Part shown: positions 9,231 to 47,133 of the stretch, piece after piece
How the letters are laid out: each line of letters begins with the position of its first letter
Position numbering within the stretch: position 1 is the first letter of the stretch
Source of the DNA: Brienomyrus brachyistius
Taxonomy: Eukaryota; Chordata; Actinopteri; Osteoglossiformes; Mormyridae
NCBI RefSeq assembly: GCF_023856365.1
Contig: NW_026042457.1
Span: 62,001-126,000, forward strand
DNA length: 64,000 nt
Direction of reading: 5' to 3'
Made by a program: the position numbers and the translations under genes
Notes under the pieces: generated by a model
Database searches by the model: none
What the model saw: the letters and a program-made list of their open reading frames with translations, nothing else
What the model was told of the DNA's origin: nothing

Positions 9231-9234
9231 AAAT

Positions 9235-14490: not shown

Positions 14491-14493
14491 AGG

Positions 14494-15034: not shown

Positions 15035-15125
15035 AGTCAGCTTACAGAGATGAGGTCCAGAAACTGATAGGTTGGAGTTCAGCAAACAATTTGGCACTAA
15101 ACAGCACAAAGACAAAGGAATCACT
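15035..15125 (+). pseudogene. Short downstream piece of the interrupted Rex1-like RT (copy A)
   Basis: The frame encodes YRDEVQKLIGWSSANNLALN and STKTKE, the conserved segment just after the catalytic YxDD box in Rex1/CR1 polymerases. It belongs to the same family type as 14093-14490, so the CR1-like piece appears to lie inside an older, already deleted Rex1-like copy. Same at 54687-54777. Confidence 0.55.
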
Positions 15126-17295: not shown

Positions 17296-17299
17296 TAAT

Positions 17300-17395
17300 A
17301 GAAAATAAATGACAAATGGTTATTTTATATTTTATATATTTTATATATTTATATTTATATTATATTTTATATAATTTATATTATTTTATATTTCC
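17300..17395. repeat. TATTTTATAT low-complexity tract (copy A; same at about 56955-57045)
   Basis: Irregular repeats of tattttatat and tatatttata are bounded on the right by cctgtcttaaaatgtaaggg. The same tract with the same right border recurs within the copy-B expansion (60620-60720 and 60900-60985), so it took part in the local rearrangement there. Confidence 0.8.
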
Positions 17396-17399
17396 TGTC

Positions 17400-19135: not shown

Positions 19136-19227
19136 ATACTGGAGCCTGGTTGCGGTGGTGGGATGGCTCACGGCGGGTGCCGGAAAATTTCCTTTATTTT
19201 CAAATCCAAACCTTGACAGGTATGCTG

Positions 19228-20216
19228 CTGTTCCAAATCATGGGTGCATGTTACAAGTGCGGAACATATTTTAACTTAGTACTAACTTAGCATCATATTT
19301 GATCTGATTCGACTGAATATCCCAGGTTTCCATCTCTCATGCATCTGGTGTGACGTGTTTTCAGACTCTCAGGCTGGCGCAAAGAAATCTTACGGGAATT
19401 GAACGTCTCACTCCGGCCAGCTGACCAAAGTTGGTAACCTTGGTATTGTGTGTAGGAGATTCGGTATAACTATAATTTCGTTCTCCATTTACATGCCCGT
19501 AGTGTCTTTAAGTGTTATGTAGTTTTGCCTGAAACGCAAAAATAAAACAAAGCAATTAAAGCCGTAAGTGGCTCAAATTGTGCTGTAGCGATTGAAGAAC
19601 TTTTGTCGGAAGTTGGATTCGAACCCACGCCTTACTTGGGAGAACAGAATACCAGAATAGAGTAGGTTAAGTCCAGCCTTGGCTTCCAAGCTGACGTTTT
19701 TCTACATATGTGCTTGTGTATCATGGACAGTAAGAGGGGGCAGGCAAGGAGAGAATTTCTCTCTTTGGGGATCAATAGAGTGTTGTTATTATAACGTCTA
19801 AAAAGTATGATGGTCTGTCGATAAATCAATAACAATATCAATGAAGTCAATGTTTATCTAAAGGAATCAGAATTCAGGAAAAGCCAGGGGCCGGACCGAG
19901 TGTAGGGGGCGTGGCCAGAGACAGCCTGCTGACTGTTCCAAATCATGGGTGCATGTTACAAGTCCGGAACATATTTTAACTTAGTACTAACTTAGCATCA
20001 TATTTGATCTGATTCGACTGAATATCCCAGGTTTCCATCTCTCATGCATCTGGTGTGACGTGTTTTCAGACTCTCAGGCTGGCGCAAAGAAATCTTACGG
20101 GAATTGAACGTCTCACTCCGGTCAGCTGACCAAAGTTGGTAACCTTGGTATTGTGTGTAGGAGATTCGGTATAACTATAATTTCGTTCTCCATTTACATG
20201 CCCGTAGTGTCTTTAA
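19228..20216. repeat. Pair of 283-bp direct repeats (copy A)
   Basis: Bases 19228-19512 and 19933-20216 are nearly identical, both running from ctgttccaaatcatgggtgc to tgcccgtagtgtctttaa. They flank about 420 bp holding a tRNA-Leu-like relic and a ggcgtggccagagacagcct stretch. Copy B has three units (about 58880-59163, 61044-61327, 61754-62037), consistent with further unequal exchange there. Confidence 0.9.
19604..19695 (-). pseudogene. tRNA-Leu(UAA)-like pseudogene (copy A)
   Basis: The minus strand reads from gtcag to ttccgaca with a canonical B box (gggttcgaatcc) preceded by aaggcgt, and an anticodon-loop segment ggacttaacc. Length (92 nt) and 3' half match tRNA-Leu with its long variable arm. 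The anticodon stem and part of the acceptor stem do not pair and the A box is degenerate. It may be a tRNA-derived SINE head. Confidence 0.5.
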
Positions 20217-28011: not shown

Positions 28012-29071
28012 TGTGTTCATCGCTATGATGTGGTCAAAAAGCGATGCATTGAATCTTAGAAACATTTGTGATTTTTCAAACGATGCTTTTCCTTTTATTT
28101 AATCAGTAAAATTTCCATCGGTTTTATATAGTGCCCCTTGAAATATGTCTTTAGCTCATTTTCCGGGCATTTTACTAGAATGCATCCTGAGAAATACACA
28201 AGCTCTGCTGCATTTCCGTGCCTCGATGTTTAGTGCCGAGTATAATTGTTGCAGTTGCCTTTTATATATTCCATGAGACCTGTTGGTACCAAGAGAAGTG
28301 TGAGACTGTCAGGGTGAATTTATCATACAATCGCACGCATAAATACCTGAGGGTTGCCAGTCCTTTTGCGTTGTTACAGGAGGACTAGAGCTGACGAGTG
28401 TGTTTCTACACACTATCAAGGGCATTGTAGTACAGTTTTCTCAGGTGGGAGAATGCTGCCGATCTCCTATTTGACAATACAGCCCTTGATATATTAGAAT
28501 ATTACAGAACTAGAAGCCTTTTGCAAGGAAGAATGTGAGAAAATCCCAAGTACAAGAACTGAAAGCCTTTCAGCTGGCTATAAGAAGCGCTTGTAAGCTG
28601 TGATATCTGGCAGAGGAGGTGTTACTAAGTACTGATTACGTAGGGTGCCCAAACTTTTGCAGAGTGCCATAATAATGTTTTTATTTTGTAATTTTGTTCA
28701 ATTTATGGCATAAAAAGTAACTATTCATCAATGTTTGCTGAAAATATTGTGTATTTTTCCCCCAGTTCCTAAAGAGACTGTATTAACTGATATTGTTGCT
28801 TTTGTAATTGAAAAGATGTTATTTGTCAAGGGGTGCCAAACCTTTGCATAAGACTGTACACAGTGTGTGTATGTGTTTATGTGAGTGTGTGTCTGTGTGT
28901 GTGTGTGTATATATATATATGTGTGTGTGTGTATATATTTCTGTATATGCATGTGTATATATATATTTATATATAGTTCACACACATTCAAACTTATTTG
29001 AATACACATTCAAAATTATTTTTATTATTATTATTTTCGTTTTTTTTTTTTTTTTGTGTTTTAAAATTTTT

Positions 29072-29696
29072 TATTTTTGCAATGGAAATAAAAATAAAGC
29101 AGTCCTCCGTAGAGGAGGGGTGGTGGAGGGAATATATATATATATATACATATATATAAAATAATTGTCACACAACTGGGGTGACATGCCTTTCCTGCTC
29201 ACCCAATTTTAGTGCACTTTAGTTATGCATAATGACCTTCTAGTCTCGATACACCCATATATATATATGTATATATATATAGTTTTTTTGTTTTTTTTTT
29301 TGCAATAGACAATAAAAATAACGCAGTTCTCCATAAAGGAGGGATGGTGGATGGAATATATATATACATATATATTAAATAATTGTCACACAACTTGGGT
29401 GACATGCCTTGCCTGCTCACCCAATTTTAGTGCAACTTAGTTATCCATAATGACCAACTAGTCTCGATACACCCATATATATATATATATGTACATATAT
29501 ATATAGTTTTTTTATTAGCAATAGAAAAGAAAAATAACGCAGTTCTCCGTAAAGGAGGGATGGTGGATGGAATATATATATATATATATACATTTATATA
29601 AAATAATTGTCACACAACCTGGGTGACATGCCTTGCCTGCTCACCCAATTTTAGTGCACCTTAGTTATCCATACTGACCATCTAGTCTCGACACAC

Positions 29697-29749
<53 letters not shown>

Positions 29750-30051
29750 GATATTTTTTCTTTTTCTTGTGTTTTTTTTTCGCAATGGATATTAAAAATA
29801 AAGCAGTCCTCCGTAAAGGAGGGGTGGTGGAGGGAATATATATATACATATATATATAAAATAATTGTCACACAACCTGGGTGACATGCCTTGCCTGCTC
29901 ACCCAATTTTAGTGCAACTTAGTTATCCATAATGACCAACTAGTCTCGATACACCCATATATATATATATATATGTACATATATATAGTTTTTTTATTAG
30001 CAATAGAAAAGAAAAATAACGCAGTTCTCCGTAAAGGAGGGATGGTGGATG

Positions 30052-30121
<70 letters not shown>

Positions 30122-30229
30122 TTATATAAAATAATTGTCACACAACCTGGGTGACATGCCTTGCCTGCTCACCCAATTTTAGTGCACTTTAGTTATCCAT
30201 ACTGACCATCTAGTCTCGACACACCCATA

Positions 30230-30288
<59 letters not shown>

Positions 30289-30496
30289 GATATTTTTTCT
30301 TTTTCTTGTGTTTTTTTTCGCAATGGATATTAAAAATAAAGCAGTCCTCCGTAAAGGAGGGGTGGTGGAGGGAATATATATATACATATATATATAAAAT
30401 AATTGTCACACAACCTGGGTGACATGCCTTGCCTGCTCACCCAATTTTAGTGCAACTTAGTTATCCATAATGACCAACTAGTCTCGATACACCCAT
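29072..30496. repeat. Satellite array, left part (copy B), six units before the retrovirus
   Basis: Unit order by subtype is A-like, C, B, A, B, A. Copy A has A-like, C, C, A before the equivalent point, so this side gained about two units by unequal exchange. The array is broken at cccat by the retrovirus. Confidence 0.88.
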
Positions 30497-30966
30497 TGTT
30501 AGGTTGAAGAAACTGTTAGTAATCATTTGTTATCATTTCTGTATAATCAGCAATGAGTGTAAATATGTATATACATTATTTTGTTTTCCTTTACCTTCAT
30601 ACTTTAGATTATATTAGTTTACACGTATCCTGAGCACGTGTTTAAATAGTTGTCCACCTGAGTAAAACCAGAACTTCTTCTTACTCTCACAGTCTTTTCT
30701 TTGTTCTCACTCCAAGACCCCTGCCCCCCATTGACTATAAATAAAGGTGCCAAGGGGAACCACCCTTTGTAACACATTCCTTTGTAGCCTAGCATGCAGA
30801 GAGTGTGGTTACCCTTGTGCAAGTAAAACTCTAAGTGTGTTGTCTCGTAATTAATGGTGTGTACAGAGTTGGAGTGGAAAGCCTGTCGCTTTCTCCAACA
30901 TATACTGTACTGTAGTTTGGTCCTGTGTGCAGAGTTGGAGTGGAAAGCCTGACGCTTTCTCCAACA
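30497..30966 (+). repeat. Retroviral 5' LTR
   Basis: TATAAATA at 30736-30743 overlaps AATAAA at 30740-30745. The last part contains a repeat of its own end: cagagttggagtggaaagcc...ctttctccaaca occurs at 30864-30900 and again at 30930-30966. After the first copy comes tttggtcct (30916-30924), the same bases that begin the true primer site after the second copy. Confidence 0.92.
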
Positions 30967-30973: not shown

Positions 30974-30991
30974 TGGTCCTTCGAGCCGGAT
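30974..30991 (+). promoter_or_regulatory. Primer-binding site complementary to tRNA-Tyr
   Basis: TGGTCCTTCGAGCCGGAT, seven bases after the LTR end. Its complement matches the CCA-tailed 3' end of vertebrate tRNA-Tyr, whose acceptor stem pairs CCUUCGA with UCGAAGG. The last base may be a mismatch. Confidence 0.75.
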
Positions 30992-31552
30992 TCGAGGACA
31001 CCTGACGACATCGCCAGCACACCGAGAGGAGCGACACTGAAGCCTGCCGGCAGCCACTCGGAGACGGGTGCAGAAAAGACCTGTGACGTGAATTCGTCAT
31101 CAGGCCGGTGGTTAGAACTGCGCTCGACGTCTGGTGATGTCTGACGGACCTCGGTGGCGGAACACAGGCACACAGGACAGGTGAGACAACAAAGGTTATT
31201 CAGCGAAATAACCGGGTCAATTGACGTGGGTTAGGCTTAGCCGTAATTAAGCAGAAAAGGGGTTAGGCTTAGCCGTAATTAAGCGAAATATGAACATGCA
31301 TGTATTGTGTGAATGACTGGACTAAGACTATTAAAGAGGCTTAGAGTTGCTTCTGTCAGTCCATTTCTTATTTTGCCTGGTGGGAAAGAAGTACTGGTGA
31401 TTGAAGGATCAAGGACGGGTTTCATCCCTGAAAACCGATACCGCTGCACGAACAGCGTGTAGTAGAAGGCCGTATTGGTGTCCTCCCATATATCTTGTAC
31501 CAGTGAATTTCCACCCAGGACCTGTGTAGTGCGGAGACGGGAAAGAAAAAAA

Positions 31553-33049
31553 ATGGGAAAGAATCAGAGTAAGAGGATTGAACTAGAGGGAGATGAGAAG
31601 TTTATGGAAGGATATAAACCAGGTTCAGGACAAATAAGTAATCAGAGGTGGAGAAAAAAACATGGGTTTGAAGGGAAACTCCACACTCCAGATATCTTAA
31701 AATTACAAGGAAATTTAAGACTAGAAATGTTACAAACCTTGAAGAAAGGAAAATTGGAGAAAAGGAAAAAAGAATATAAGTATTCAGATAATTGGTTGGA
31801 ACAAAGTAAGTTAAGAGATGTACGTAGAAAGCAGAAAAAGGATGATAGAAAGGATAAATTAACTGCAGCCGCTCTAATCACTTTAGATGATGAGACGGTG
31901 GCCAAAATAAAACATAGAGAAAATAGACCACCAACACCACCACTATTGCCTGCCCCTATGCAACCCGTAGATAGAAGGGAAATAAAACAACCATCAGCTA
32001 TGGGCACAATACCAAAGAAGCCATCAGCTCTTCCTTCTTCCCCCATTATAACTAGGAGTAGAGATCCTACGTTATACCCTGTGCGCGATCTAGCTACTGC
32101 TAAGATTCGATGGCATCCGCGAAATGAAGGCATTGATATTGATAGTGAAGAGGAAGAAATAGAATTACAATGCCCCCTAGTGGAGGTGGCAAACCCTAAT
32201 AGAGAGCCAGATGGAGGACCTGAAACAATGTTAGTCTATAGACCATGGACAGCTGAAGATAGAACGGCAGCATTAAAAGGAATACCTCCTGTTGATGAAG
32301 GGGTACCAGAATTTTGGACAGCAATATTGGAACTACAGAGCAGTTTCCACCTGAATGGTAGAGAAATGTTCCAGTGTTTAAGACAGCTGTTCAATCATAA
32401 ATGGGGAAGAGTAGCAGGAGACTTTACTGGTCATGGACCAGACAATCAACCACTTGCACATAATTCACAAGCTCTGCAACAGAGTATGGAGCAATTACAT
32501 GGAAGGATAGAGACAGTGTTTATGAGACGAGCAGATTATGGCAGAATTGCACAATGCAAGCAAAAAGATGGAGAAGAGCCAGAGGATTTTATGGATAGGA
32601 TGAGAGTGGTGTTTAGAGGGAATTCAGGAATTCCTTATAATGAGGAAAATGGAGGAGTTTATCAGCAACAGTTAAAACGTGCGTTCATCACAGGGCTAAA
32701 ACCTGAACTGAAGAGATACATAGATAAACATTGGGTACATCAGAATACTGGTTCAGTACAGCAAGCCCTAGAATATGCCCAACACGCCCATACAGCACAA
32801 AAACAGAAATCAGACGCAGTGTTTGCTGCTAATGATACTGTTGCAATAATACATATGAATCCTCCGGGGAGGGGAGGGTTCAGAGGAAGGTCACGAGGCC
32901 GAGGAAGGGGGAGAGGTGCTTTTAGGAGCAATCAGCGAAATTTATTACAGCAAGATAACACTTGCTGGACATGCGGAAAACTTGGGCACTTAGCTAGGCA
33001 ATGTAGAACCAAGTTTATAAACAACCCAAATTCCACAGAGAATCAATGA
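31553..33049 (+). CDS. gag: Retroviral Gag polyprotein
   Basis: The ATG at 31553 is chosen over an in-frame one at 31475 because it gives MGKNQSK, a myristoylation-type start. The product has 498 residues. An N-terminal basic matrix-like region is followed by a Pro-rich segment (PPTPPLLPAPMQP) and a capsid-like region with VYRPWTAEDRTAALKGIPP and a major-homology-like stretch (EEPEDFMDRMRVVF). A Gly/Arg-rich stretch (RGGFRGRSRGRGRGRG) precedes one CCHC zinc knuckle (CWTCGKLGHLARQC, residues 471-484). It drives particle assembly and RNA packaging. It ends at TGA 33047-33049; the same frame stays open after it. Confidence 0.92.
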   Translation: MGKNQSKRIELEGDEKFMEGYKPGSGQISNQRWRKKHGFEGKLHTPDILKLQGNLRLEMLQTLKKGKLEKRKKEYKYSDNWLEQSKLRDVRRKQKKDDRKDKLTAAALITLDDETVAKIKHRENRPPTPPLLPAPMQPVDRREIKQPSAMGTIPKKPSALPSSPIITRSRDPTLYPVRDLATAKIRWHPRNEGIDIDSEEEEIELQCPLVEVANPNREPDGGPETMLVYRPWTAEDRTAALKGIPPVDEGVPEFWTAILELQSSFHLNGREMFQCLRQLFNHKWGRVAGDFTGHGPDNQPLAHNSQALQQSMEQLHGRIETVFMRRADYGRIAQCKQKDGEEPEDFMDRMRVVFRGNSGIPYNEENGGVYQQQLKRAFITGLKPELKRYIDKHWVHQNTGSVQQALEYAQHAHTAQKQKSDAVFAANDTVAIIHMNPPGRGGFRGRSRGRGRGRGAFRSNQRNLLQQDNTCWTCGKLGHLARQCRTKFINNPNSTENQ

Positions 33050-33055
33050 CAATTA
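33044..33055 (+). promoter_or_regulatory. Predicted translational readthrough site CAA UGA CAA UUA at the gag end
   Basis: The stop is followed by CAA UUA, matching the stop-CAR-YYA rule defined for tobamovirus replicase readthrough, with CAA also before the stop. Protease is in the same frame, so readthrough would produce the Gag-Pro fusion. CCTGT (33057-33061) and ACAGG further down could form a weak stem, but I see no strong pseudoknot. Confidence 0.7.
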
Positions 33056-34021
33056 GCCTGTGAACTATCAAAAGAGCCAGATAAGCTGCAAAAACAGGAT
33101 GAGACAGAAGAGATAGATTTGCAAGCAGTTTACCAGCTGCTAGCACTAAAACAACTTGAAGAACTACCAAAACGAAGGCTTATTATAAATGGGAAAATAT
33201 ATGAGTGCCTATGTGATACAGGAGCCTGTAGGACAGTGTTAACCACTAGCCCTCCAAGGGTCACCTTTTCTTCGTCCTCCATAAATATCCGAACTGCAGG
33301 AGGCCAAGCTGAAAGTCATCAATTGACAAATCCAGTTAGCATAAAAGATGAGGAAACAGAGTTAGAATGTCACGCCCAAGTGCTAATAAGCCCTTCATGT
33401 CCAGTCAATCTGTTAGGAAGGGATCTTATGATACAAATGGGTATTAGTGTGATTGCAACACCCACTGGCATGAAGGCTATAGTAGAAAAGCAAACTTTCG
33501 TGATACATGGCATGTCAGCTCCACAGTATTATTGGTCCCTAGATCTGGGGGGGACAGCACAGACACGTGAAATATTGAGAAAAACTAGAGAAAAGCAGTC
33601 CCCTAAACAAACCCAGTTCATGCCTGACGATGCCTTACACGTCACTATGTGGTACAAAGGCACCCTAGGACCAGATTATGCCTATGACAAAACGTTTCAT
33701 GCCCTTCAAGACACTTGTATCACCTTACAACATATATATGTTAACTCCACTACTGGCTTTTCTGCTGCTTCAGTCATCTTATCTAATAAACAACAGGCTG
33801 TGTTCAGAGGGGAAACACCACACGTATCTCTATCAAAACCACCTCAGATGCAGTGGAGGGACGTAGAGATGTTCTTACGAGATTCCATGCACAGTTACAA
33901 TAACTACCAACCCGTACCTGGCTCCTTTTGGAGCTATGACAAAAAACACAATGTGTGGCGGTTTCCTTTGGGATGGAGAGTTCAAACCACTCTCACCACA
34001 CACTTGCAGGACCCAACCTGA
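33050..34021 (+). CDS. pro: Retroviral aspartic protease fused to a 2H phosphoesterase-like domain
   Basis: The frame is continuous with gag after its UGA: 323 codons to TGA 34019-34021. The protease part (about 33119-33500) has the active-site DTGA (from 33215) and the C-terminal LLGRDLM motif. About 140 further residues follow, which retroviral proteases do not need. They contain LHVTMWYKG (His codon 33638) and PHVSLSKPP (His codon 33821), 61 residues apart, with ITLQHIYV and FSAASVILSN between. That is the H-x-T/S pair and strand pattern of 2H phosphoesterases, closest in my judgement to the CNPase type. Such enzymes cut 2',3'-cyclic or 2',5'-linked nucleotides; substrate here is unknown. 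It has no start codon of its own, so it depends on readthrough. Confidence 0.8.
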   Translation, partial: QLACELSKEPDKLQKQDETEEIDLQAVYQLLALKQLEELPKRRLIINGKIYECLCDTGACRTVLTTSPPRVTFSSSSINIRTAGGQAESHQLTNPVSIKDEETELECHAQVLISPSCPVNLLGRDLMIQMGISVIATPTGMKAIVEKQTFVIHGMSAPQYYWSLDLGGTAQTREILRKTREKQSPKQTQFMPDDALHVTMWYKGTLGPDYAYDKTFHALQDTCITLQHIYVNSTTGFSAASVILSNKQQAVFRGETPHVSLSKPPQMQWRDVEMFLRDSMHSYNNYQPVPGSFWSYDKKHNVWRFPLGWRVQTTLTTHLQDPT

Positions 34022-37000
34022 CAAATTTTTCCAACCCTGGAGGAGGGATCATGTCCAGATCTAGATCGCCTCCCGGAAGGGTTGTGGTCGTCCTCCCCCA
34101 CTGATGTAGGACTGGTAAAGGGGTTTCCACCTTACAAAGTAATTGTGAAATCAGAACACCGTCCGGTAGTTAGACAATACCCGTTAAAACCTGAAGCAGA
34201 GAAAGGTATAGCCCCTGTAGTGCAGGATATGTTGGCATCAGGAATATTGCGAGAGGCTCCTGAGGCCACTTGCAATACTCCTATATTCCCCGTCCAGAAG
34301 GGACATACAGGGAAATGGCGCATGGTGCAGGATTTAAGACCAGTAAATGAAATAGTACAACATGCTGCACCAGATGTGCCTAATCCACACCTTTTGTTAA
34401 ATTCCTTGTCCCCTGACAAGAAGTATTTTTCAGTAGTGGATCTGAGTAATGCCTTTTTCTCAGTACCACTACATCCTGATTCACAACACTTATTTGGTTT
34501 CACTTATAAAGGACATAAATACACATACACTAGACTCCCTCAAGGGTTTTCAGAAAGTCCACATGTATATACAATGGCACTACGCTATTCAATGAGTTCC
34601 TGTAAAATACCATCCCATAGTCAAGTGCTATTGTATGTAGATGATATATTAATTGCTTCAGATACAAAACAGCATTGCAAAGAAGCCACACTGTTAGTGT
34701 TACAGCATTTGTATGATACAGGACATAAAGCATCAAAACAAAAATTACAGTATTGCAGAGAGGAAGTTATATATCTTGGACATAAACTCTCCCAACAAGG
34801 TCGATCATTATTAGAAACTAGAAAACAGGCAATACAAGAGGCACCAAAGCCAAAGACTAAACAGCAAATGATGTCCTTCTTAGGACTTTGCAATTATTGC
34901 AGGGAATGGTTACCTGATTATGCTGCACTCGTTCAACCTTTACAAACCCTGATTTATGGGAAGGACATGGCACTGAAAGATAAAATTCAGTGGACAAAAG
35001 AAGGAGAATTGGCATTCACAAACTTAAAAATGATGTTACAAACTAATGTGACACTTGCTCTGCCAGATTATCAACAACCATTTATTCTATGTGTTGATGC
35101 AAATCAAGGGTATATGAAGGCAGTATTAACACAGCCATTCGGCGCAAAAGAGAGGCCATTGGCGTTCTATTCTAAACGATTAGATGCAGTGGCAGCTGGT
35201 TTTCCGCAGTGTTTGCAGGCATGTGCAGCTGCTGCAGAAGCAGTGAAATTATCAGCAGAATTAGTGTTGTGTCACCCACTCACTTTGAAGGTGCCACATT
35301 CAGTTTCTTTAGTTTTACTGCAGACGCCACTGCCATTCCTCACACATGTTAGACATCTGACCCTAGTCTCACTCCTGCTTTCACAGTCAAACATCACAAT
35401 ACAGCGATGTGGTCCTCTCAACCCTAGCACCCTTCTTCCGACAGCGGAAGATGGAGAGCCACATTCGTGCAAAGCAGTTGTGGAAGAACAAACCAAACCA
35501 AGAGCAGATATTTTACAGACCCCAATACCAGATTCAACAGTTGTTTTTGTAGATGGATCAGCATCAAAAAATGACATGGGGAAGAACAAGGTCGGATATG
35601 CTGTAGTTACATCTACTGAAGTGTTGGAGGCCAATGCACTTCCCCCTGCTTGTTCAGCACAAGCGGCTGAACTCTATGCTGTAATTAGGGCATGTGAGCT
35701 CTTCAAAAACAAGCCACTTACAATATACACTGATAGTCAATATGTGTTTGGAGCTGTTCATCACCATGCAAGAGTGTGGAAAAATAGAGGATTCAAGACA
35801 TCGCAAGGAACATCTTTAACTCATACGAACCTATTACTCAGGTTGTTAGATGTTGTGCAATTACCAAATTGCCTTGCGATATGCAAATGTAAGGCACACC
35901 AAACTGATGCTTCCGCAATAGCTAAAGGAAACAGTTTTGCGGACATGACGGCAAAAAGTGCTGCACAAAAACAACCTGCCTTAAATGTTACAGATGTCTT
36001 GTTGATAGATAGTGATGTACTATGTGATGCACAGACTCATGCACCTAAAACAGAAATACAGAGCTGGATTAAGAGAGGAGCAATACAGCAAGGGAAAACT
36101 TATTATATGAATGACAAGCCCATCCTACCAAAAAATTTATACAAGACAGCTGCCTTAGTGAGCCATGGAAACACCCATGTCTCAACAGGAGGGATGGTAC
36201 ATATTATTCAACAATACTTTTATACTATAAATTTTTCTGATTATGCAAAACAATTTTGTCGAGCGTGCTTAATTTGCTGTAAACACAATGCACAAGGCAA
36301 CATAAGGCCAAAACGTGGCCAGTTTCCCGCAGCTGAGTATCCATTTCAAATTGTACATATGGATTTCATTGAATTATCTTGGTCACAAGGGAAGAAGTGT
36401 TGCCTAGTCGTTATAGACACCTTTTCTAAGTGGGTAGAAATATACCCTGTAAAACACTGTGATGCAATGACCGTTGCAAAATGTTTGGTAGGCCATTATT
36501 TCCCTACCTATGGCATACCTCATATTATAAGATCGGACAATGGGACTCATTTTGTAAATCAGACCATGTCCCTTTGCTCACAAGCATTAGGGTTTACGAT
36601 CAAAAATCATTGTGCTTATCACCCCCAGAGCGCAGGCTTGGTGGAAAGGACCAACGGCACCATTAAAACAAGGCTCAGAAAGACAGTGGAAGAGACAAAA
36701 AGACCGTGGCCAGAATGTTTGTCTCTAGTAAAATTATGGATGAGAATAACTCCCACTCCTGCAGGATTGACACCATTTGAAATAGTGTATGGTAGACCGT
36801 TTCCCTTAGCAACCGAAATGAGTGATATAGGAAAAGCAGACAGAGAAAATACGTTAGCCGATTGGATGCGTAAGCTATTATCATCACAACAAAAACATAA
36901 CCCCAGTAGTCTGCCAGTAAATTCTGTTTCTGTTCAACAGGATAATCTGCAGCCAGGAGATTGGATCCTGGTCAAGGTCCTGTTGCGAAAGGATTGGAGC

Positions 37001-37141
37001 ACGCCTCGGTGGGACGGACCTTATCAAGTCCTGCTCACAACACCAACAGCGGTGAAAATAGCAGAGCGACCTTCCTGGATACATAAGAGTCACTGTAAGC
37101 CCATCAAGCCCGTATCAGAGACCTCTGTACCTTCGGAGTAG
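34022..37141 (+). CDS. pol: Retroviral Pol: reverse transcriptase, RNase H, integrase
   Basis: Same frame as gag and pro; 1,039 codons follow the second UGA. RT: FSVVDLSNAFFSVPL, LPQGF, and catalytic YVDD (34634-34645). A gammaretrovirus-style connection region follows. RNase H: VDGSA, AAELYAV, YTDSQYV, and FADMTAKSA supply the acidic residues. Integrase: HHCC zinc domain (HGNTH ... CRACLICC), then D (36362), D (36536, SDNGTH) and E (36644, VERTNG) in a D,D-35-E array, and a GPY-type end (WDGPYQV). All catalytic residues are present with no internal stop. Expression depends on passing the UGA at 34019. It copies viral RNA to DNA and integrates it. Confidence 0.92.
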   Translation, partial: QIFPTLEEGSCPDLDRLPEGLWSSSPTDVGLVKGFPPYKVIVKSEHRPVVRQYPLKPEAEKGIAPVVQDMLASGILREAPEATCNTPIFPVQKGHTGKWRMVQDLRPVNEIVQHAAPDVPNPHLLLNSLSPDKKYFSVVDLSNAFFSVPLHPDSQHLFGFTYKGHKYTYTRLPQGFSESPHVYTMALRYSMSSCKIPSHSQVLLYVDDILIASDTKQHCKEATLLVLQHLYDTGHKASKQKLQYCREEVIYLGHKLSQQGRSLLETRKQAIQEAPKPKTKQQMMSFLGLCNYCREWLPDYAALVQPLQTLIYGKDMALKDKIQWTKEGELAFTNLKMMLQTNVTLALPDYQQPFILCVDANQGYMKAVLTQPFGAKERPLAFYSKRLDAVAAGFPQCLQACAAAAEAVKLSAELVLCHPLTLKVPHSVSLVLLQTPLPFLTHVRHLTLVSLLLSQSNITIQRCGPLNPSTLLPTAEDGEPHSCKAVVEEQTKPRADILQTPIPDSTVVFVDGSASKNDMGKNKVGYAVVTSTEVLEANALPPACSAQAAELYAVIRACELFKNKPLTIYTDSQYVFGAVHHHARVWKNRGFKTSQGTSLTHTNLLLRLLDVVQLPNCLAICKCKAHQTDASAIAKGNSFADMTAKSAAQKQPALNVTDVLLIDSDVLCDAQTHAPKTEIQSWIKRGAIQQGKTYYMNDKPILPKNLYKTAALVSHGNTHVSTGGMVHIIQQYFYTINFSDYAKQFCRACLICCKHNAQGNIRPKRGQFPAAEYPFQIVHMDFIELSWSQGKKCCLVVIDTFSKWVEIYPVKHCDAMTVAKCLVGHYFPTYGIPHIIRSDNGTHFVNQTMSLCSQALGFTIKNHCAYHPQSAGLVERTNGTIKTRLRKTVEETKRPWPECLSLVKLWMRITPTPAGLTPFEIVYGRPFPLATEMSDIGKADRENTLADWMRKLLSSQQKHNPSSLPVNSVSVQQDNLQPGDWILVKVLLRKDWSTPRWDGPYQVLLTTPTAVKIAERPSWIHKSHCKPIKPVSETSVPSE

Positions 37142-37232
37142 CAGTGGAAGTCCGCTACAAAGGCGCAGCAATCAATAGGATACTGACGTCTCAACCCGGT
37201 GAAGAAAACAGCTGATCTGCACTCCATTTAGA

Positions 37233-38660
37233 ATGGCTCTGATTGGGTGGGGATGTGGTAAGGTAACTCTCGGTGTAATTCTCTTTATGGGAATTGTTGG
37301 TCTGCTTCTGCACTCACCAGAGCAGGTGTTTCGCCCACCTAGATGGACACATGACGGCTCCCACCTGAGACCTATCTCCACAAATGAGACCCATCCTTTC
37401 CTACAAAACTACTGGTACCGTTATGTTTATGATTCAGCAAAGAAAGACAATTTAACTAATTGTTATGTCTGTACCCACATGCCATCTCATGCCGATGGAT
37501 TAACTATATATGGGAAACCTATGAATAAGTCACAAGCAAAGTGTGCTGCCTCTTTTGCAGGTGTAGGCTATCAGCATGATAATATAAAAATAAATGATAC
37601 AGATCCATATACTGCTGGTTTGGATAATGGCGTATGTGCACAGCAGTTTTGGATCGATTTTGCTATAAAAGTGTCAAATATATCCTTACCTTTATCTGTC
37701 CACCTGAACATGGACCCTAAAACATTTAATCACTCAATGTGTTATGACCAAATGAACGGCACCCATCATATGGGGAACACCACCAACTGTGCCCAAATAC
37801 TAGTACACGGAGAAGGTGCCCCGGTAAACATAAGTGGATTTAGTAATGGCACCTACTGGGTGCAAGGAGTAGCTTGGTTATGTGGACCCCGCGCATATTT
37901 CGTTTTGCCCTATAACTGGTATGGTGTGTGCGCTCCAATCTTTGTGTCAGACCATACTTTCCTGGTGTCACTGTCATCTACACCAGCGAACCGCAGGCGC
38001 CGGTCCATCATAACTACAGCTTCTCTCCATCCTCATGACAGTGTCTGGGGTTCAGATGTTCCCCAGGAGTTCAAACATTGGTCTACAGACCAGAAAGTAT
38101 TAATGTCTCTTTTTCCCTGGGTAGGAACAGCAAAGAATACGTTACGATTAGAAACTATTGATTATCGTTTGGGGCTGTTCATAAATAACTCCATCATAAT
38201 AAATGAGCAACAGAATGGTGAGATAGATGCTATTAAACAGATGGTCATTCAGAATAGAATGGTTTTAGACATACTTACTGCTGCACAAGGTGGTGTGTGC
38301 GTGCTTTTAAATAATACCTGCTGTACATATATTCCCGATAATGTGCACTCACCCAACATGACTACAGCCTTGGACCGTCTGCGAGAACTTCAAAAGATCA
38401 TGACCTTAGACCCTCATGCTGGCCCCTCATGGTTGGACTGGTTTCTTACTGGGTCCTGGTGGCAGTTACTGCTAAAGTTCTCACTCCCCATTCTTGTTAC
38501 ATTATTATTTGTATGTTGTTGTTTCATTTGTATTATACCCTGCCTCCGTTCCATGATACAACATACTTTTAGTTCTGTTTTTCTGCTATACACTGCAGAA
38601 GAACGAATGGATTTACTAACCTTGTCTAGCCCTCTTAATAATGATGATGATGTGATCTGA
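37233..38660 (+). CDS. env: Retroviral envelope glycoprotein
   Basis: The 475-residue frame begins 91 bases after pol, presumably from a spliced RNA. A hydrophobic signal (ILFMGIVGLLL) opens it. The surface subunit has CYVC (residues 77-80), a CxxC like that of covalently linked SU-TM complexes, and many N-glycosylation sites. A furin-type RRRR lies at 254-257. The transmembrane subunit has CVLLNNTCC (CX6CC, residues 356-364), a Trp-rich stretch (WLDWFLTGSWW), a hydrophobic anchor (LPILVTLLFVCCCFICII) and a short acidic tail. It is short for the family but complete. Whether the last residues are original or altered by the neighbouring L2 insertion is unclear. Confidence 0.9.
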   Translation: MALIGWGCGKVTLGVILFMGIVGLLLHSPEQVFRPPRWTHDGSHLRPISTNETHPFLQNYWYRYVYDSAKKDNLTNCYVCTHMPSHADGLTIYGKPMNKSQAKCAASFAGVGYQHDNIKINDTDPYTAGLDNGVCAQQFWIDFAIKVSNISLPLSVHLNMDPKTFNHSMCYDQMNGTHHMGNTTNCAQILVHGEGAPVNISGFSNGTYWVQGVAWLCGPRAYFVLPYNWYGVCAPIFVSDHTFLVSLSSTPANRRRRSIITTASLHPHDSVWGSDVPQEFKHWSTDQKVLMSLFPWVGTAKNTLRLETIDYRLGLFINNSIIINEQQNGEIDAIKQMVIQNRMVLDILTAAQGGVCVLLNNTCCTYIPDNVHSPNMTTALDRLRELQKIMTLDPHAGPSWLDWFLTGSWWQLLLKFSLPILVTLLFVCCCFICIIPCLRSMIQHTFSSVFLLYTAEERMDLLTLSSPLNNDDDVI

Positions 38661-38734
38661 ATGACGGTTGTGCTGAAAGTGTTTTTGCAATTTGTACAAT
38701 ACTGATGCTTCTGATCATACTGTCATGATAAACA

Positions 38735-41700
38735 GGACTCATCTCAGGACTTGCTGGCTCATCTCTTTCTAGTTCGTCACCCCAAATCACCATGGTTATT
38801 GTGTATAGACCGCCTGGGCCGTACAGTGATTTTCTTAAGGAATTTGCTGATTTTTTAACAAACCTGGTGGTCAGTACTGACAAAGCCGTTATTGTGGGTG
38901 ATTTTAACATTCATATGGAGAAGGATAATGATCCTTTAAAAACAGCGTTTGCAGCTATTCTTGACTCTGTAGGTGTATGTCAGAATGTAGTCGGGCCTAC
39001 TCATGTCTGTAACCATACCCTTGATTTGATCATTAGTCATGGCATCCTGGTAGAACATGTGTCTATTATGCCACAGAGTCCTCTGCTCTCAGATCATTAC
39101 TTGTTAACATTTGAAATCCAGTATAGCCTCCTGTTGACCACCACTCCAAAGTATAGAATCAGACGTTCTATTAAGGCACTAACTACAACAACATTTATGA
39201 AACAACTTCCACAGTCCTTTAGCCTTACATCTGAAGCATCGTGTGTAAATGAACTTGAACAGGCAACTTCAAACATGGAAAAATCCCTTCGCAGCACTCT
39301 AGATCTTGTGGCTCCACTTAAAAGGATAAAGCATAGCAATAACAAACCTGCCCCCTGGTACTCTGATAATACACGTGAACTCAAACAGGCATCACGCAAG
39401 CTAGAGCGAAAATGGCGCTCAACTAAACTGGAAGTTTTCAAATCTGCCTGGAAAGAGAGCCTCTCTAAATACAGACAAGCACTAGTAACTGCTCGGTCTG
39501 TGTATCTCTCCAGATTAATAGACATGAACAAAACCAATCCTAAATTCCTATTTGAATCCGTGGCTAGGATAACACAGAATTCCTCATTAAACTTGCAAAT
39601 CCCACAAGCTCTTAAGAGTGATGACTTTCTTACATTTTTTAATGGTAAGATAACTACAATTAGACAGACTATACAGTGCACACCTTTACCTACTTACGGC
39701 TGCCTGCCTCCTGCTAGTCTTATGCCTACCAATAATGAGACCTTTGAATCATTCATTCCTATTACACACTCAGAACTTTTGAGCTTAATTTTCTCCTGTA
39801 AATCCTCTACTAGCCTTGTAGACCCAATTCCTACAAAATTCTTCAAGGAAATTGCACCACAGATTGGCACTACCGTGTTAAATGTGTTAAACTCTTCTCT
39901 TAGGCTTGGATATGTTCCAAAACCTTTTAAAATGGCTGTTATCAGACCCGTCCTAAAGAAACCAAATCTTGAACCCAGTGTTTTAGGAAACTATAGACCT
40001 ATCTCAAATCTTCCTTTCATTTCAAAGATCATGGAAAAGGTTGTAGTTCGTCAGTTGTCCTCTTTCCTACAAAAAACTAATGCCAATGAATTATATCAGT
40101 CTGGCTTTAGACCAAACCATAGCACAGAAACTGCTCTAGTCAAAGTAATGAATGATCTACTTGTGGCTTCTGACCGTGGCTGTGTATCTCTGTTGGTATT
40201 GCTAGATTTAACTGCAGCGTTCGATACTGTGGACCATAATATCCTCTTGGACCGGTTAGAAGGTGTAGTTGGCATTACAGGGACAGCGCTCTCTTGGTTC
40301 CGCTCATATTTGTCTGATCGCTATCAGTATGCACATGTAAACAATGAATCATCCCAGGCCACTAAAGTTGAATATGGTGTCCCACAGGGATCAGTCCTGG
40401 GCCCGCTACTGTTTACCCTATACATGCTACCTCTTGGTAACATTATTAGAAATCATGGTATTGGGTTTCATTGTTATGCAGATGATACACAGTTGTACAT
40501 ATCTGTTAACCCTGATGATATATCACTGCTATCTCGGTTAGAAGACTGTCTATTAGATATCCAGTGCTGGATGGCAAAAAATTTCCTTATGTTAAACACA
40601 GAAAAAACAGAAGTTCTGGTAATTGGTCCCAAGGCTGCTAGAAATAAGTTCCACCACCTCAACGTTGGTAACCTTCCTACACAACCTAACATGGTAGTTA
40701 GAAATCTTGGCGTTCTTGTCGATTCAGATCTATGCTTTGATGCTCACATAAGAAGTATTACTAGAACTGCATTTTATCATCTACGGAACATAGCCAAGCT
40801 TCGTAAGATGCTCTCACTTAATGATGCAGAAAAACTAATACATGCCTTCGTAAGTTCCAGACTGGATTACTGTAATGCCCTCCTATCGGGTTGCCCGTCT
40901 GGATCCTTGCATAAACTTCAGATGGTACAGAATGCTGCAGCCAGAGTTCTAACAAACACTAAAAAATTTGATCATATTACACCGGTCTTATCCTCTCTTC
41001 ATTGGCTGCCAGTTAAGTCTCGAATTGACTATAAAATACTGCTATTAACTTATAAAGCACTAAATGGCCTTGCACCAGAATACCTTAGTGAACTGCTGAC
41101 CACATACAACCCTCCACGCTTGCTTCGCTCTCATGCCATGGGATATCTGTTAGTGCCTAGGGTAGAAAGAGCTACGGCAGGCTGCAGAGCTTTCTCCTAC
41201 AAAGCTCCTCTGCTGTGGAATGGTCTTCCACCGGATGTGCGGGTTTCAGGTTCACTCTCAATATTCAAGTCCAGACTAAAAACACACCTGTTTAGTTTAG
41301 CGTATAGGGACACTAGTTCTAGCCCTAGCTAACTCTTCACTCCCAGTCAGGCCTGTAGTGTGAGGTGTAGAGCTGGGTGGGGATCGGTGCCATTGGCTTT
41401 GGATGAACTGGATTGTCAGTGCTGTCACTCTAGCTTTGCAATCTCTTGTGGAACTGGAGTGCTGACATTTCAGGGACTCCCCATGCCGGCATTCCCACTT
41501 GCCTCTCCCTCCTACTGATGCTGCCATAGCCATATCTGCCGGAGCTTGCAGATTGCACTTCATATTGTACTCACCTAGCTTTTAGCACTGCCAATAGCCT
41601 CCTCTACTATGCCTAATTGTACATTTTATTTCCCCTACTCCTCCTGGGGGTGATGCCTGGAGACCTCAATCTATCAAGATATCCAGCACACCCGACCACC

Positions 41701-42050
41701 ACCAGTGACGTCCCTGCATCCAGCTCGCCGTTCTGATCTTCCATTTTTGACCCGCTGCCTTACCTCTGGTTGCCTGGCAATTGGAAGAAGACTCGGCTTC
41801 GGCATTGGCTTATCTTCCTTGCTCTCCTCTCTCTATTTGACTATCCCTGCCGGCCCCTGGAGGATGGGCTTCCCCTTTGAGTCTGGTCCCTCTCAAGGTT
41901 TCTTCCTTCTAGGGAGTTTTTCCTTGCCACTGTCGCCTATGGCTTACTCACTGGGGGCTTTGGGTGAGGATACTGTAAAGCGCTTTGAGACAATGTAATG
42001 TTGTGATAATGCGCTATATAAAAATAAATTTGTTGTTGTTGTTTGTTGAG
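38735..42050 (+). mobile_element. 5'-truncated L2 LINE inserted between env and the 3' LTR
   Basis: It contains most of ORF2, then a 3' untranslated region ending in aagcgctttgagac, gcgctatataaaaataaatt and TTG repeats. The 5' edge is approximate (between the env stop and about 38760). Only about six purine-rich bases (agggac) separate its tail from the 3' LTR, so it lies in or against the polypurine tract. No clear target duplication seen. The 3' half matches the internally deleted L2 copies at 18352-19135 and 58004-58787 at roughly 98% by eye. Confidence 0.85.
38792..41332 (+). CDS. L2 LINE ORF2 protein: partial endonuclease plus reverse transcriptase
   Basis: An 846-residue frame is open from the truncation to the natural end. 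The first ATG is just a methionine inside the endonuclease domain; the N-terminal third of that domain is missing. Retained endonuclease motifs are GDFNIH (residue 36 on) and SDHYLL. The RT has FRPNHSTETAL, LDLTAAFDTVDH, GVPQGSVLGPLLF and catalytic YADD (562-565), followed by the L2-type C-terminus (SSLHWLPVKSRIDYK). RT looks intact, but the element lacks ORF1, a promoter and a complete endonuclease, so it is probably inactive. The intact frame indicates a recent insertion. Confidence 0.85.
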   Translation: MVIVYRPPGPYSDFLKEFADFLTNLVVSTDKAVIVGDFNIHMEKDNDPLKTAFAAILDSVGVCQNVVGPTHVCNHTLDLIISHGILVEHVSIMPQSPLLSDHYLLTFEIQYSLLLTTTPKYRIRRSIKALTTTTFMKQLPQSFSLTSEASCVNELEQATSNMEKSLRSTLDLVAPLKRIKHSNNKPAPWYSDNTRELKQASRKLERKWRSTKLEVFKSAWKESLSKYRQALVTARSVYLSRLIDMNKTNPKFLFESVARITQNSSLNLQIPQALKSDDFLTFFNGKITTIRQTIQCTPLPTYGCLPPASLMPTNNETFESFIPITHSELLSLIFSCKSSTSLVDPIPTKFFKEIAPQIGTTVLNVLNSSLRLGYVPKPFKMAVIRPVLKKPNLEPSVLGNYRPISNLPFISKIMEKVVVRQLSSFLQKTNANELYQSGFRPNHSTETALVKVMNDLLVASDRGCVSLLVLLDLTAAFDTVDHNILLDRLEGVVGITGTALSWFRSYLSDRYQYAHVNNESSQATKVEYGVPQGSVLGPLLFTLYMLPLGNIIRNHGIGFHCYADDTQLYISVNPDDISLLSRLEDCLLDIQCWMAKNFLMLNTEKTEVLVIGPKAARNKFHHLNVGNLPTQPNMVVRNLGVLVDSDLCFDAHIRSITRTAFYHLRNIAKLRKMLSLNDAEKLIHAFVSSRLDYCNALLSGCPSGSLHKLQMVQNAAARVLTNTKKFDHITPVLSSLHWLPVKSRIDYKILLLTYKALNGLAPEYLSELLTTYNPPRLLRSHAMGYLLVPRVERATAGCRAFSYKAPLLWNGLPPDVRVSGSLSIFKSRLKTHLFSLAYRDTSSSPS

Positions 42051-42054: not shown

Positions 42055-42524
42055 TGTTAGGTTGAAGAAACTGTTAGTAATCATTTGTTATCATTTCTGT
42101 ATAATCAGCAATGAGTGTAAATATGTATATACATTATTTTGTTTTCCTTTACCTTCATACTTTAGATTATATTAGTTTACACGTATCCTGAGCACGTGTT
42201 TAAATAGTTGTCCACCTGAGTAAAACCAGAACTTCTTCTTACTCTCACAGTCTTTTCTTTGTTCTCACTCCAAGACCCCTGCCCCCCATTGACTATAAAT
42301 AAAGGTGCCAAGGGGAACCACCCTTTGTAACACATTCCTTTGTAGCCTAGCATGCAGAGAGTGTGGTTACCCTTGTGCAAGTAAAACTCTAAGTGTGTTG
42401 TCTCGTAATTAATGGTGTGTACAGAGTTGGAGTGGAAAGCCTGTCGCTTTCTCCAACATATACTGTACTGTAGTTTGGTCCTATGTGCAGAGTTGGAGTG
42501 GAAAGCCTGACGCTTTCTCCAACA
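42055..42524 (+). repeat. Retroviral 3' LTR
   Basis: Same length and internal repeats as the 5' LTR, with one seen difference at 42483 (A for G). It ends in ccaaca followed by the target duplication cccat. Confidence 0.92.
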
Positions 42525-42622
42525 CCCATATATATATATATATATGTACATATATATAGTTTTTTTATTAGCAATAGAAAAGAAAAATAACGCAGTTCTC
42601 CGTAAAGGAGGGATGGTGGATG

Positions 42623-42682
<60 letters not shown>

Positions 42683-42785
42683 TTATATAAAATAATTGTC
42701 ACACAACCTGGGTGACATGCCTTGCCTGCTCACCCAATTTTAGTGCACTTTAGTTATCCATACTGACCATCTAGTCTCGACACAC

Positions 42786-42846
<61 letters not shown>

Positions 42847-43266
42847 GATATTTTTTCTTTTTCTTGTGTTTTTTTTTCGCAATGGATATTAAAAATAAAG
42901 CAGTCCTCCGTAAAGGAGGGATGGTGGATGGAATATATATATAAAATAATTGTCACACAACCGGGGTGACATGCCTTGCCTGCTCACCCAATTTTAGTGC
43001 ACCTTAGTTATTCATAATGACCATCTAGTCTCGATACACCCATAAATATATATGTATATATATATAGTTTTTTTATTAGCAATAGAAAAGAAAAATAACG
43101 CAGTTCTCCGTAAAGGAGGGATGGTGGATGGAATATATATATATATATATACATTTATATAAAATAATTGTCACACAACCTGGGTGACATGCCTTGCCTG
43201 CTCACCCAATTTTAGTGCACTTTAGTTATCCATAATGACCATCTAGTCTCGATACACCCATGAATA

Positions 43267-43319
<53 letters not shown>

Positions 43320-43506
43320 TTTCTGTTTTTTTTTTGCAATAGACAATAAAAATAACGCAGTTCTCCGTAAAGGAGGGATGGTGGATGGAATATGTATATG
43401 CATATATATAAAATAATTGTCACACAACCTGGGTGACATGCCTTGCCTGCTCACCCAATTTTAGTGCACCTCAGTTATCCATACTGACCATCTAGTCTCG
43501 ACACAC

Positions 43507-43551
<45 letters not shown>

Positions 43552-44493
43552 GATATTTTTTCTTTTTCTTGTGTTTTTTTTTCGCAATGGATATTAAAAA
43601 TAAAGCAGTCCTCCGTAAAGGAGGGGTGGTGGAGGGAATATATATATACATTTATATAAAATAATTGTCACACAACTGGGGAGACATGCCTTGCCTGCTC
43701 ACCCAATTTTAGTGCACCTTAGTTATCCATAATGACCAACTAGTCTCGATACACCCATAAATATATATATATATATGTACATATATATAGTTTTTTTATT
43801 AGCAATAGAAAAGAAAAATAACGCAGTTCTCCGTAAAGGAGGGATGGTGGATGGAATATATACATACATATATATAAAATAATTGTCACACAACCTGGGT
43901 GACATGCCTTGCCTGCTCACCCAATTTTAGTGCAACTTAGTTATCCATAATGACCAACTAGTCTCGATACACCCATAAATATATATGTATATATATAGTT
44001 TTTTTTTTTTCGCAATGGACAATAAAAATAACGCAGTTCTCCGTAAAGGAGGGATGGTGGATGGAATATATATATAAAATAATTGTCACACAACCGGGGT
44101 GACATGCCTTGCCTGCTCACCCAATTTTAGTGCACCTTAGTTATTCATAATGACCATCTAGTCTCGATACACCCATAAATATATATGTATATATATGTAT
44201 TGTTTTTTTTTTTTTTTTTTTTTGCAATAGACAATAAAAATAGCGCAGTTCTCCATAAAGGAGGGATGGTGGATGGAATATATATATACATATATATAAA
44301 ATAATTGTCACACAACCTGGGTGACATGCCTTGCCTGCTCACCCAATTTTAGTGCAACTTAGTTATCCATAATGACCAACTAGTCTCGATACACCCATAT
44401 ATATATATATATATATGTACATATATATAGTTTTTTTATTAGCAATAGAAAAGAAAAATAACACAGTTCTCCGTAAAGGAGGGATGGTGGATG

Positions 44494-44577
<84 letters not shown>

Positions 44578-44682
44578 TTATATAAAATAATTGTCACACA
44601 ACCTGGGTGACATGCCTTGCCTGCTCACCCAATTTTAGTGCACTTTAGTTATCCATACTGACCATCTAGTCTCGACACACCC

Positions 44683-44717
<35 letters not shown>

Positions 44718-45001
44718 GATATTTTTTCTTTTTCTTGTGTTTTTTTTTCGCAATGGATATTAAAAATAAAGCAGTCCTCCGTAAAGGAGGGATGGTGGAT
44801 GGAATATATATATAAAATAATTGTCACACAACCGGGGTGACATGCCTTGCCTGCTCACCCAATTTTAGTGCACCTTAGTTATTCATAATGACCATCTAGT
44901 CTCGATACACCCATAAATAAATATGTATATATATATAGTTTTTTTATTAGCAATAAAAAAGAAAAATAACGCAGTTCTCCGTAAAGGAGGGATGGTGGAT
45001 G

Positions 45002-45051
<50 letters not shown>

Positions 45052-45163
45052 TTATATAAAATAATTGTCACACAACCTGGGTGACATGCCTTGCCTGCTC
45101 ACCCAATTTTAGTGCACTTTAGTTATCCAGAATGACCATCTAGTCTCGATACACCCATGAATA

Positions 45164-45218
<55 letters not shown>

Positions 45219-45405
45219 TTTCTGTTTTTTTTTTGCAATAGACAATAAAAATAACGCAGTTCTCCATAAAGGAGGGATGGTGGATGGAATATGTATATGC
45301 ATATATATAAAATAATTGTCACACAACCTGGGTGACATGCCTTGCCTGCTCACCCAATTTTAGTGCACCTTAGTTATCCATACTGACCATCTAGTCTCGA
45401 TACAC

Positions 45406-45478
<73 letters not shown>

Positions 45479-45684
45479 TATATATAGTTTTTTTATTAGC
45501 AATAGAAAAGAAAAATAACGCAGTTCTCCGTAAAGGAGGGATGGTGGATGGAATATATATATATATATACATTTATATAAAATAATTGTCACACAACCTG
45601 GGTGACATGCCTTGCCTGCTCACCCAGTTTTAGTGCACCTTAGTTATCCATAATGACCATCTAGTCTCGATACACCCATAAATA

Positions 45685-45716
<32 letters not shown>

Positions 45717-45925
45717 GTTTTTTTATTTTTTTCGTAATGGACAATAAAAATAACGCAGTTCTCCGTAAAGGAGGGATGGTGGATGGAATATATATATACA
45801 TATATACATTTATATAAAATAATTGTCACACAACCTGGGTGACATGCCTTGCCTGCTCACCCAGTTTTAGTGCACCTTAGTTATCCATACTGACCATCTA
45901 GTCTCGATACACCCATAAATATATA
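42525..45925. repeat. Satellite array, right part (copy B), 14 units
   Basis: Subtype order after the retrovirus is B A B C A B C C B A B C B C, identical to units 5-18 of copy A. TA-run lengths differ between matching units, for example much longer near 45400-45475 than near 5780-5820. Confidence 0.88.
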
Positions 45926-47096
45926 TACTGAACAAAAATATAAACGCAACACTCTTGTTTCTGCTCCCATTTTTCATGAGATGGACTTAAAGACCTACAA
46001 TTCATTCCAGATACACAATATTACCATTTCTCTCAAACATTTCTCACAAATCAGTCTAAATGTGTGATAGTGAGCACTTCTGCTTTGCTGAGATAATCCA
46101 TCCCACCTCACAGGTGTGCCACATCAAGATGCTGATCTGACATCATGGGTAGTGCACAGGTGTACCTTATACTGCCCACAATAAAAGGCCACCCTGGAAT
46201 GCGCAGTTTTTTGCTTTATTGGGGGTCTGGGGACTCAGAACCGGTCAGTATCTGGTGTGACCACCATTTGCCTCATACAATGCAACACATCTTCTTCGCA
46301 TAGAGTTTATCAGATTGTCAATTGTGGCCTGTGGAATGTTGGTCCACTCCTCTTCAATGGCTGTGCGAAGTTGTTGGATATTAGTGGGAACTGGTACACG
46401 CTGTCGTATACGCCGGTCAAGCACATCCCAAACATGCTCAACGGGTGACATGTCCGGTGAGTATGCTGGCCATGCAAGAACTGGGACATTTTCAGTTTCC
46501 AAGAACTGTGTACAGATCCTTGCAACATGGGGCCGTGCATCATCTGTCTGAGTGGCTGGTCTCAGACGATCTTGGAGGTGAACCTGCTGGATGTGGAGGT
46601 CCTGGGCTGGTGTGCTTACACGTGGTCTGCGGTTGTGAGGCCGGTTGGATGTACTGCCATATTCTCTGAAACGCCTTTGGAGACGGCTTATGGTTGAGAA
46701 ATGAACATTCAATGCACGAGCAACAGATCTGGTTGACATTCCTGCTGTCAGCATGCCAATTGCACGCTCCCTCAATGCTTGTGGCATCTGTGGCATTTTG
46801 CTGTGAGACAAAACTGCACATTCCAGGGTGGCCTTTTATTGTGGGCAGTATAAGGTACACCTGTGCACTACCCATGATGTCAGATCAGCATCTTGATGTG
46901 GCACACCTGTGAGGTGGGATGGATTATCTCAGCAAAGCAGAAGTGCTCACTATCACACATTTAGACTGATTTGTGAGAAATGTTTGAGAGAAATGGTAAT
47001 ATTGTGTATCTGGAATGAATTGTAGATCTTTAAGTCCATCTCATGAAAAATGGGAGCAAAAACAAAAGTGTTGCGTTTATATTTTTGTTCAGTGTA
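45926..47096 (-). mobile_element. Internally deleted Tc1/mariner element (copy B)
   Basis: Same insertion point and same deletion as copy A. A few substitutions distinguish it (for example 46184 aaaagg for aaatgg). Confidence 0.88.
46245..46811 (-). pseudogene. Tc1 transposase remnant with central deletion (copy B)
   Basis: 188 residues, differing from copy A at two positions (RVSTP for RVTTP, and FLETEN for FLEAEN). The DDE core is missing in the same way. Confidence 0.85.
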
Positions 47097-47133
47097 TGTA
47101 TATGTATACATATAGTTTTTTTTGTGTTTGTGA

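Follow-up and report, generated by a model that had tools for sequence, protein, structure and literature searches.

Fish epsilon-like endogenous retroviruses occasionally encode a CNPase or a macro domain (Basta et al., 2009, J Virol 83:10152, as cited in the available portion of PMC4977317). The element described here, a young provirus in the mormyrid fish Brienomyrus brachyistius, is likewise a class I retrovirus of fish with a CNPase-like frame, in this case between the protease and the reverse transcriptase (RT). It lies in a window of 64,000 nucleotides (assembly GCF_023856365.1, contig NW_026042457.1, positions 62,001 to 126,000 of the forward strand), to which all positions below refer. 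A first, sequence-only reading of this window knew of no such arrangement in retroviruses; CNPase in fish retroviruses is, however, already in print (PMC4977317, same portion), and thus the domain itself is not new. What is added here is a pair of UGA codons in one frame, a mosaic block, and the ratio of nonsynonymous (dN) to synonymous (dS) substitution rates, and it is not claimed that double stop readthrough is unpublished, no literature search having been aimed at it. Retroviruses are not mentioned in the main texts of two articles on viral 2H enzymes (PMC8406329 and PMC11410667; word search).

The CNPase/RICH catalytic domain (PF05881; mouse 2xmi, goldfish 2i3e) shares with the viral domain two H-x-T/S motifs and the intervening strand. 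CNPases carry an N-terminal kinase-like domain and a C-terminal CaaX tail, and most CNPases of the comparison set are annotated with kinase-type Pfam domains. The viral domain has neither, being preceded instead by the protease; it is also shorter ahead of the first His, and the window copy does not retain the Arg that precedes the second His in CNPases. Among the viral 2H/LigT-like enzymes (coronavirus NS2/NS4b, rotavirus VP3, avipox, and phage Acb1), 2H chemistry would be expected of the new domain from its motifs, while its structural Z-score to VP3 is weak. In betaretroviruses, a dUTPase that adjusts the nucleotide pool lies in the pro frame ahead of RT. The 2H domain, likewise placed after the protease and before RT, would similarly be a nucleotide-acting enzyme expressed at an intermediate level, but the dUTPase has another fold and chemistry and is reached through frameshifts, whereas two in-frame UGA codons are present here.

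With a probability of about 0.62, we read the domain as a compact CNPase-type 2H phosphoesterase, produced as Gag-Pro-2H through readthrough of the gag UGA and hydrolyzing a 2'-linked or 2',3'-cyclic nucleotide. If active, it would represent a 2H phosphodiesterase built into retroviral Gag-Pro and hence delivered with the core.

A CNPase-like domain follows the protease

The pro-2H open reading frame (ORF; 33050-34018, plus strand) spans 323 amino acids between two in-frame TGA codons. Pfam names only the protease (RVP, ORF residues 40-133), in agreement with the initial view that standard retroviral proteins do not explain the remainder, for which searches of Pfam at E up to 10 and of NCBIfam at E up to 1 gave no match and PHROGs gave nothing notable. 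This remainder was initially taken as about 140 residues after LLGRDLM with a domain start at 33600; it in fact runs for about 198 residues to the second TGA, and the domain begins near 33521 (PQYYWSLDL) and ends in THLQDPT. The two motifs themselves, LHVTM and TPHVSL, stand as first described, with their histidines (His197 and His258) 61 residues apart.

The two H-x-T/S motifs that characterize the 2H superfamily are present as LHVT and PHVS, and both are kept in three lineages of genomic copies (A, B, and C, described below) and in the database proteins P0001-P0004. When a profile of five viral sequences was aligned to 30 vertebrate CNPase domains, the two motifs fell in register, and 0 of 300 column shuffles reached the score of this profile comparison, whether five or seven viral sequences were used. 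This remote alignment supports the proposal that protease and RT are separated by a CNPase-like 2H domain, and the domain is probably a CNPase-type phosphoesterase. Four viral sequences gave no match to PF05881 at its curated cut-off, and a PDB sequence search, with a single sequence and with a profile, returned no 2H match.

An AlphaFold model built from an alignment that contained CNPases, and biased accordingly, has CNPase chains as its nearest structural neighbors rather than enzymes acting on 2',5'-oligoadenylate (2-5A), with 16% identity to CNPase over 124 residues. A viral-only model of the whole ORF was set aside, given a mean predicted confidence (pLDDT) of 37 and only proteases prominent in its Foldseek results. 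When BFVD was searched with the 2H model, the sole match below 1e-3 was Q2VF30_1, a 1072-amino-acid piece of a viral protein (E 4.3e-4), which may belong to salmon swim bladder sarcoma virus; the polyprotein of walleye epidermal hyperplasia virus 1 matched weakly (E 0.97). Judging from these model-based matches, exogenous epsilonretroviruses may also carry a 2H domain.

Relatives and genomic copies

Protein searches recovered P0001 and P0003 (protease and domain), P0002 (Goodea atripinnis), and the shorter P0004-P0006 (Xenoophorus captivus). All five sequences that reach both motifs (the window and P0001-P0004) keep LHVTM and TPHxSL, while P0005 and P0006 stop short of them. The window and P0001-P0003 share an end point five residues past a conserved TH, which for the database entries is the end of the protein.

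In the host genome (985 Mb), a first look gave 655 candidate places, the best 150 of which were scored; in this best-scoring, non-independent set, two copies have a stop inside the domain. Across 41 stretches (40 fetched copies and the window), LHVTM is present in 41 and TPHVSL in 40, the motif exceptions being broken copies such as L073. Loss of the histidines in related proviruses, which the sequence-only reading had named as grounds for abandoning the idea, is thus not what was found. A tblastn search of viral contigs gave no relative of pro-2H or RT; of the eight contigs brought up by two RT-motif scans, none matched RT, and one aligned with 2H by tblastn at chance level (E 0.025, 20% identity).

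Of 25 spacings between copies on 18 selected contigs, 12 fall at 119-133 kb, with near-identical copies on, for example, C14, C119, C162, and C182. Given this recurring spacing, many copies appear to have been duplicated along with host segments rather than inserted independently, and a giant repeat unit with proviruses inside it is suggested.

A mosaic block and selection on the domain

From the 40 fetched stretches and further loci, three lineages were distinguished: A, which includes the window, B (336-amino-acid frame), and C (324-325 amino acids). Lineage A resembles C (L086) at 86-98% identity in gag and protease and at 89-100% in RT from about 34361, but at only 56-70% over 33551-34090. 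Compared with B (L088), the pattern is reversed, with 56-82% in gag and protease and 82-94% over 33551-34360. Among 709 informative sites (L088 and L086), A shares the state of B at 201 of the 220 that fall within the block and at 41 of the 489 elsewhere. A two-breakpoint fit gains 249.6 log units over no break and places the breaks at 33568-33583 and 34339-34345. The resulting block of 0.77 kb spans the two catalytic motifs and the second stop and takes in the first part of RT. Its transfer is most simply read as template switching between co-packaged genomes, and such exchange between lineages would mark the domain as a module that viruses gain by swapping, as expected for a host-facing part.

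The dN/dS comparison proposed at the outset gave a value near 0.1 between lineages A and B. For the 2H domain of the window against five B copies, dN is 0.016-0.019 and dS 0.172-0.197 (ratio 0.093-0.101), with a bootstrap range of 0.028-0.221 for one pair. The ratio is 0.11-0.12 for the protease, which lies across the break and has a dS of 1.45-1.54, and 0.070-0.076 for pol (two copies). Against lineage C, the 2H core has a dN of 0.34-0.36 with saturated dS, and both H-x-T/S motifs are still present. Between lineages, the 2H domain shows protein-level selection, with a ratio like those of protease and pol.

Several points weigh against or qualify these results. The similarity to CNPase is remote, being detected between profiles, and is too distant for a tree of the host capture that the sequence-only reading proposed, and the biased AlphaFold model is of low confidence. 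The dN/dS values come from selected data, namely five of the 13 fetched B copies for 2H and two of three for pol, where L080 was dropped as part of its RT is missing. For the 2H core of L088, a B copy that is more distant, the ratio is 0.194 (142 codons, dS 0.30). It rises to 0.86 when 27 lineage A copies are pooled and compared with the window, as would fit decay once inserted, selection presumably being confined to viral replication. L088 also aligns poorly past 34901 (identity 0.37-0.62), and the informative-site count was for this reason repeated, with the pieces analyzed apart, using C3b and C58b as B (2H from B copies L061 and L065) and L086 and L094 as C. The pattern was the same in all four pairings: A shares the B state at 5-16% of informative sites across the three stretches of 32201-33574, whereas the counts are 159-163 of 161-165 over 33575-34018 and 64-66 of 68-70 over 34019-34342; over 34343-34900, A mostly matches C again, at 42-43 sites versus 14-20 for B. 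The downstream contrast is milder here because C3b and C58b pol is about 90% like the window past the block. Finally, a single mosaic block may arise from chance alone.

Expression through two in-frame stop codons

In this provirus, gag, pro-2H, and pol share one frame that is split by two TGA stops. The idea that the domain is made within Gag-Pro holds as far as the shared frame is concerned; it does not account for the TGA that splits gag from the domain, nor for the second that splits the domain from pol. The sequence CARYYA after a stop is a type I readthrough context that can also act on UGA, and UGA followed by C is called leaky (PMC3542737, available portion). On the plus strand of the window, CARYYA follows the gag stop and no other of 3107 stop trinucleotides. 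All 28 lineage A stretches carry TGA CAA TTA at the gag stop, as do L086, L093, and L094 of lineage C; L085, also of C, reads TGA TAA TTA (L087 not included). In lineage B, the gag stop reads CAA TGA CC in 11 of 13 copies, and TTA replaces TGA in the other 2 of 13; the type I context is present neither at this stop nor at the second one. The second stop, TGA CAA, is found in 40 of 41 A and B stretches and in all five lineage C loci read, and is kept though the residues preceding it vary widely among lineages. One copy, L071 (G000 C58), lacks the second stop, and its pro-2H frame runs on as 1363 open amino acids.

From the frame and these contexts, we infer readthrough at both UGA codons, which would give a retrovirus three levels of expression without frameshifts. 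Gamma- and epsilonretroviruses likewise have a same-frame stop after gag; theirs is UAG, of type III with RNA structure (PMC3542737, Table 5, available portion), whereas here the codon is UGA, followed in lineages A and C by CARYYA. A second UGA, after 2H, also sets this element apart. Two recoding events are required in Beta- and Deltaretrovirus (PMC3542737, available portion).

Since pol has no Met before residue 70, a full RT requires either Gag-Pro-2H-Pol or a spliced message. It is conceivable, though unlikely, that the UGA stops are not readthrough sites and that pro-2H or pol is made from a spliced mRNA, in the manner of foamy viruses, which produce Pol this way. Two leaky stops in succession would yield very little Pol, and RNA folds downstream of both stops are not significant, which would suit splicing; however, the single frame common to gag, pro-2H, and pol, the late first Met of pol, and the type I context at the gag stop of A and C argue for readthrough.

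Possible function of the domain

Under the CNPase-type reading, readthrough of the gag UGA would produce Gag-Pro-2H at an intermediate level, readthrough of the second UGA would produce Pol, and the Gag moiety would bring the 2H domain into virions. In the producer cell or within the incoming core, the two histidines would then hydrolyze a nucleotide that is 2'-linked or 2',3'-cyclic and so take away a host signal or RNA end restricting the virus, by analogy with the betaretroviral dUTPase. Given the mosaic block and the protein-level selection, a nucleotide signal of the host would be the likely target, with 2',3'-cyclic phosphates and signals resembling cyclic GMP-AMP (cGAMP) as the candidate substrates.

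Hydrolysis of cyclic dinucleotides such as 2',3'-cGAMP, shielding reverse transcripts from cGAS-STING, is a possible but doubtful role. cGAS senses DNA from reverse transcription, and STING was matched in three pieces of the host genome. Avian poxvirus LigT-like 2H enzymes and phage Acb1 cleave cGAMP (PMC11410667, available portion), but four tested 2',5'-phosphodiesterases do not (PMC8406329, available portion), and the domain showed no specific sequence link to the members that cleave cGAMP, with no test aimed at one. A fuller version, in which a swappable CNPase-derived 2H cassette between read-through UGAs is packaged with the protease, hydrolyzes 2',3'-cGAMP or a related 2'-linked signal against the virus's own reverse transcripts, and is block-exchanged between co-infecting lineages, must be held somewhat less likely still.

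It is also improbable that the domain is a decayed or structural relic, serving without catalysis either to space protease and RT apart or to act as a decoy of host CNP. The shortness of the domain and the missing CNPase Arg would fit such a role, but the H-x-T/S motifs persist in A, B, and C across a dN of 0.34 while many adjacent positions vary. Least probable is the originally favored reading, in which the domain, like coronavirus NS2 and rotavirus VP3, is a 2',5'-phosphodiesterase that degrades 2-5A and so dampens OAS/RNase L, as OAS1_C had no match in the host genome at E<=0.001 where STING did (OAS was also silent in all control genomes, so its absence is not shown), OAS genes were not found in some teleosts (PMC2852836, available portion), and the biased model lies nearest to CNPase chains.

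Provirus architecture and genomic setting

The gag-pro-pol order, together with MLVIN_C and TLV_coat matches above the Pfam cut-off, places the provirus among class I (epsilon/gamma-like) retroviruses, and its long terminal repeats (LTRs) are those of a young insertion (Table 1).

Table 1. Positions of provirus features in the window.
Feature	Position	Strand	Details
5' LTR	30497..30966	+	begins TGTTAGG, finishes CCAACA; CCCAT target-site duplicate just before; identical to 42055-42524 at 469/470 positions
gag frame, stop-to-stop, CCHC zinc knuckle	31466..33046	+	
gag stop TGA	33047..33049	+	context CAA TGA CAA TTA; CARYYA type I readthrough context
Retroviral aspartyl protease, CDTGA ... LLGRDLM	33152..33497	+	Pfam RVP, E 1.1e-11
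CNPase-like 2H domain	33521..34018	+	profile comparison with 30 CNPase domains
Mosaic block grouping with lineage B	33575..34342	+	informative-site counts (B = L088, C = L086)
First 2H motif LHVTM	33635..33649	+	His197 of ORF
Second 2H motif PHVSL	33818..33832	+	His258 of ORF
Second in-frame stop TGA, between 2H and pol	34019..34021	+	context TGA CAA
pol (RT, RNase H, integrase)	34022..37141	+	frame shared with gag and pro-2H; first Met = residue 70, inside RT
env frame	37203..38660	+	TLV_coat match
3' LTR	42055..42524	+	CCCAT directly after

Just past the 5' LTR, positions 30974-30990 read TGGTCCTTCGAGCCGGA, which looks complementary to the 3' end of tRNA-Tyr, possibly an unusual primer. Between env and the 3' LTR lies a LINE-like ORF of 866 amino acids (38732-41332; endonuclease and RVT_1), and 41265-42049 is repeated at 18351-19136 and 58003-58788 with 99% identity. 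The window also contains a 17-kb duplication (2902-19933 versus 42516-59575, 99.2% identity). A minisatellite with TA-rich cores lies on either side of the provirus (29000-30500 and 42520-45930), and the predicted empty-site sequence occurs seven times within the window.
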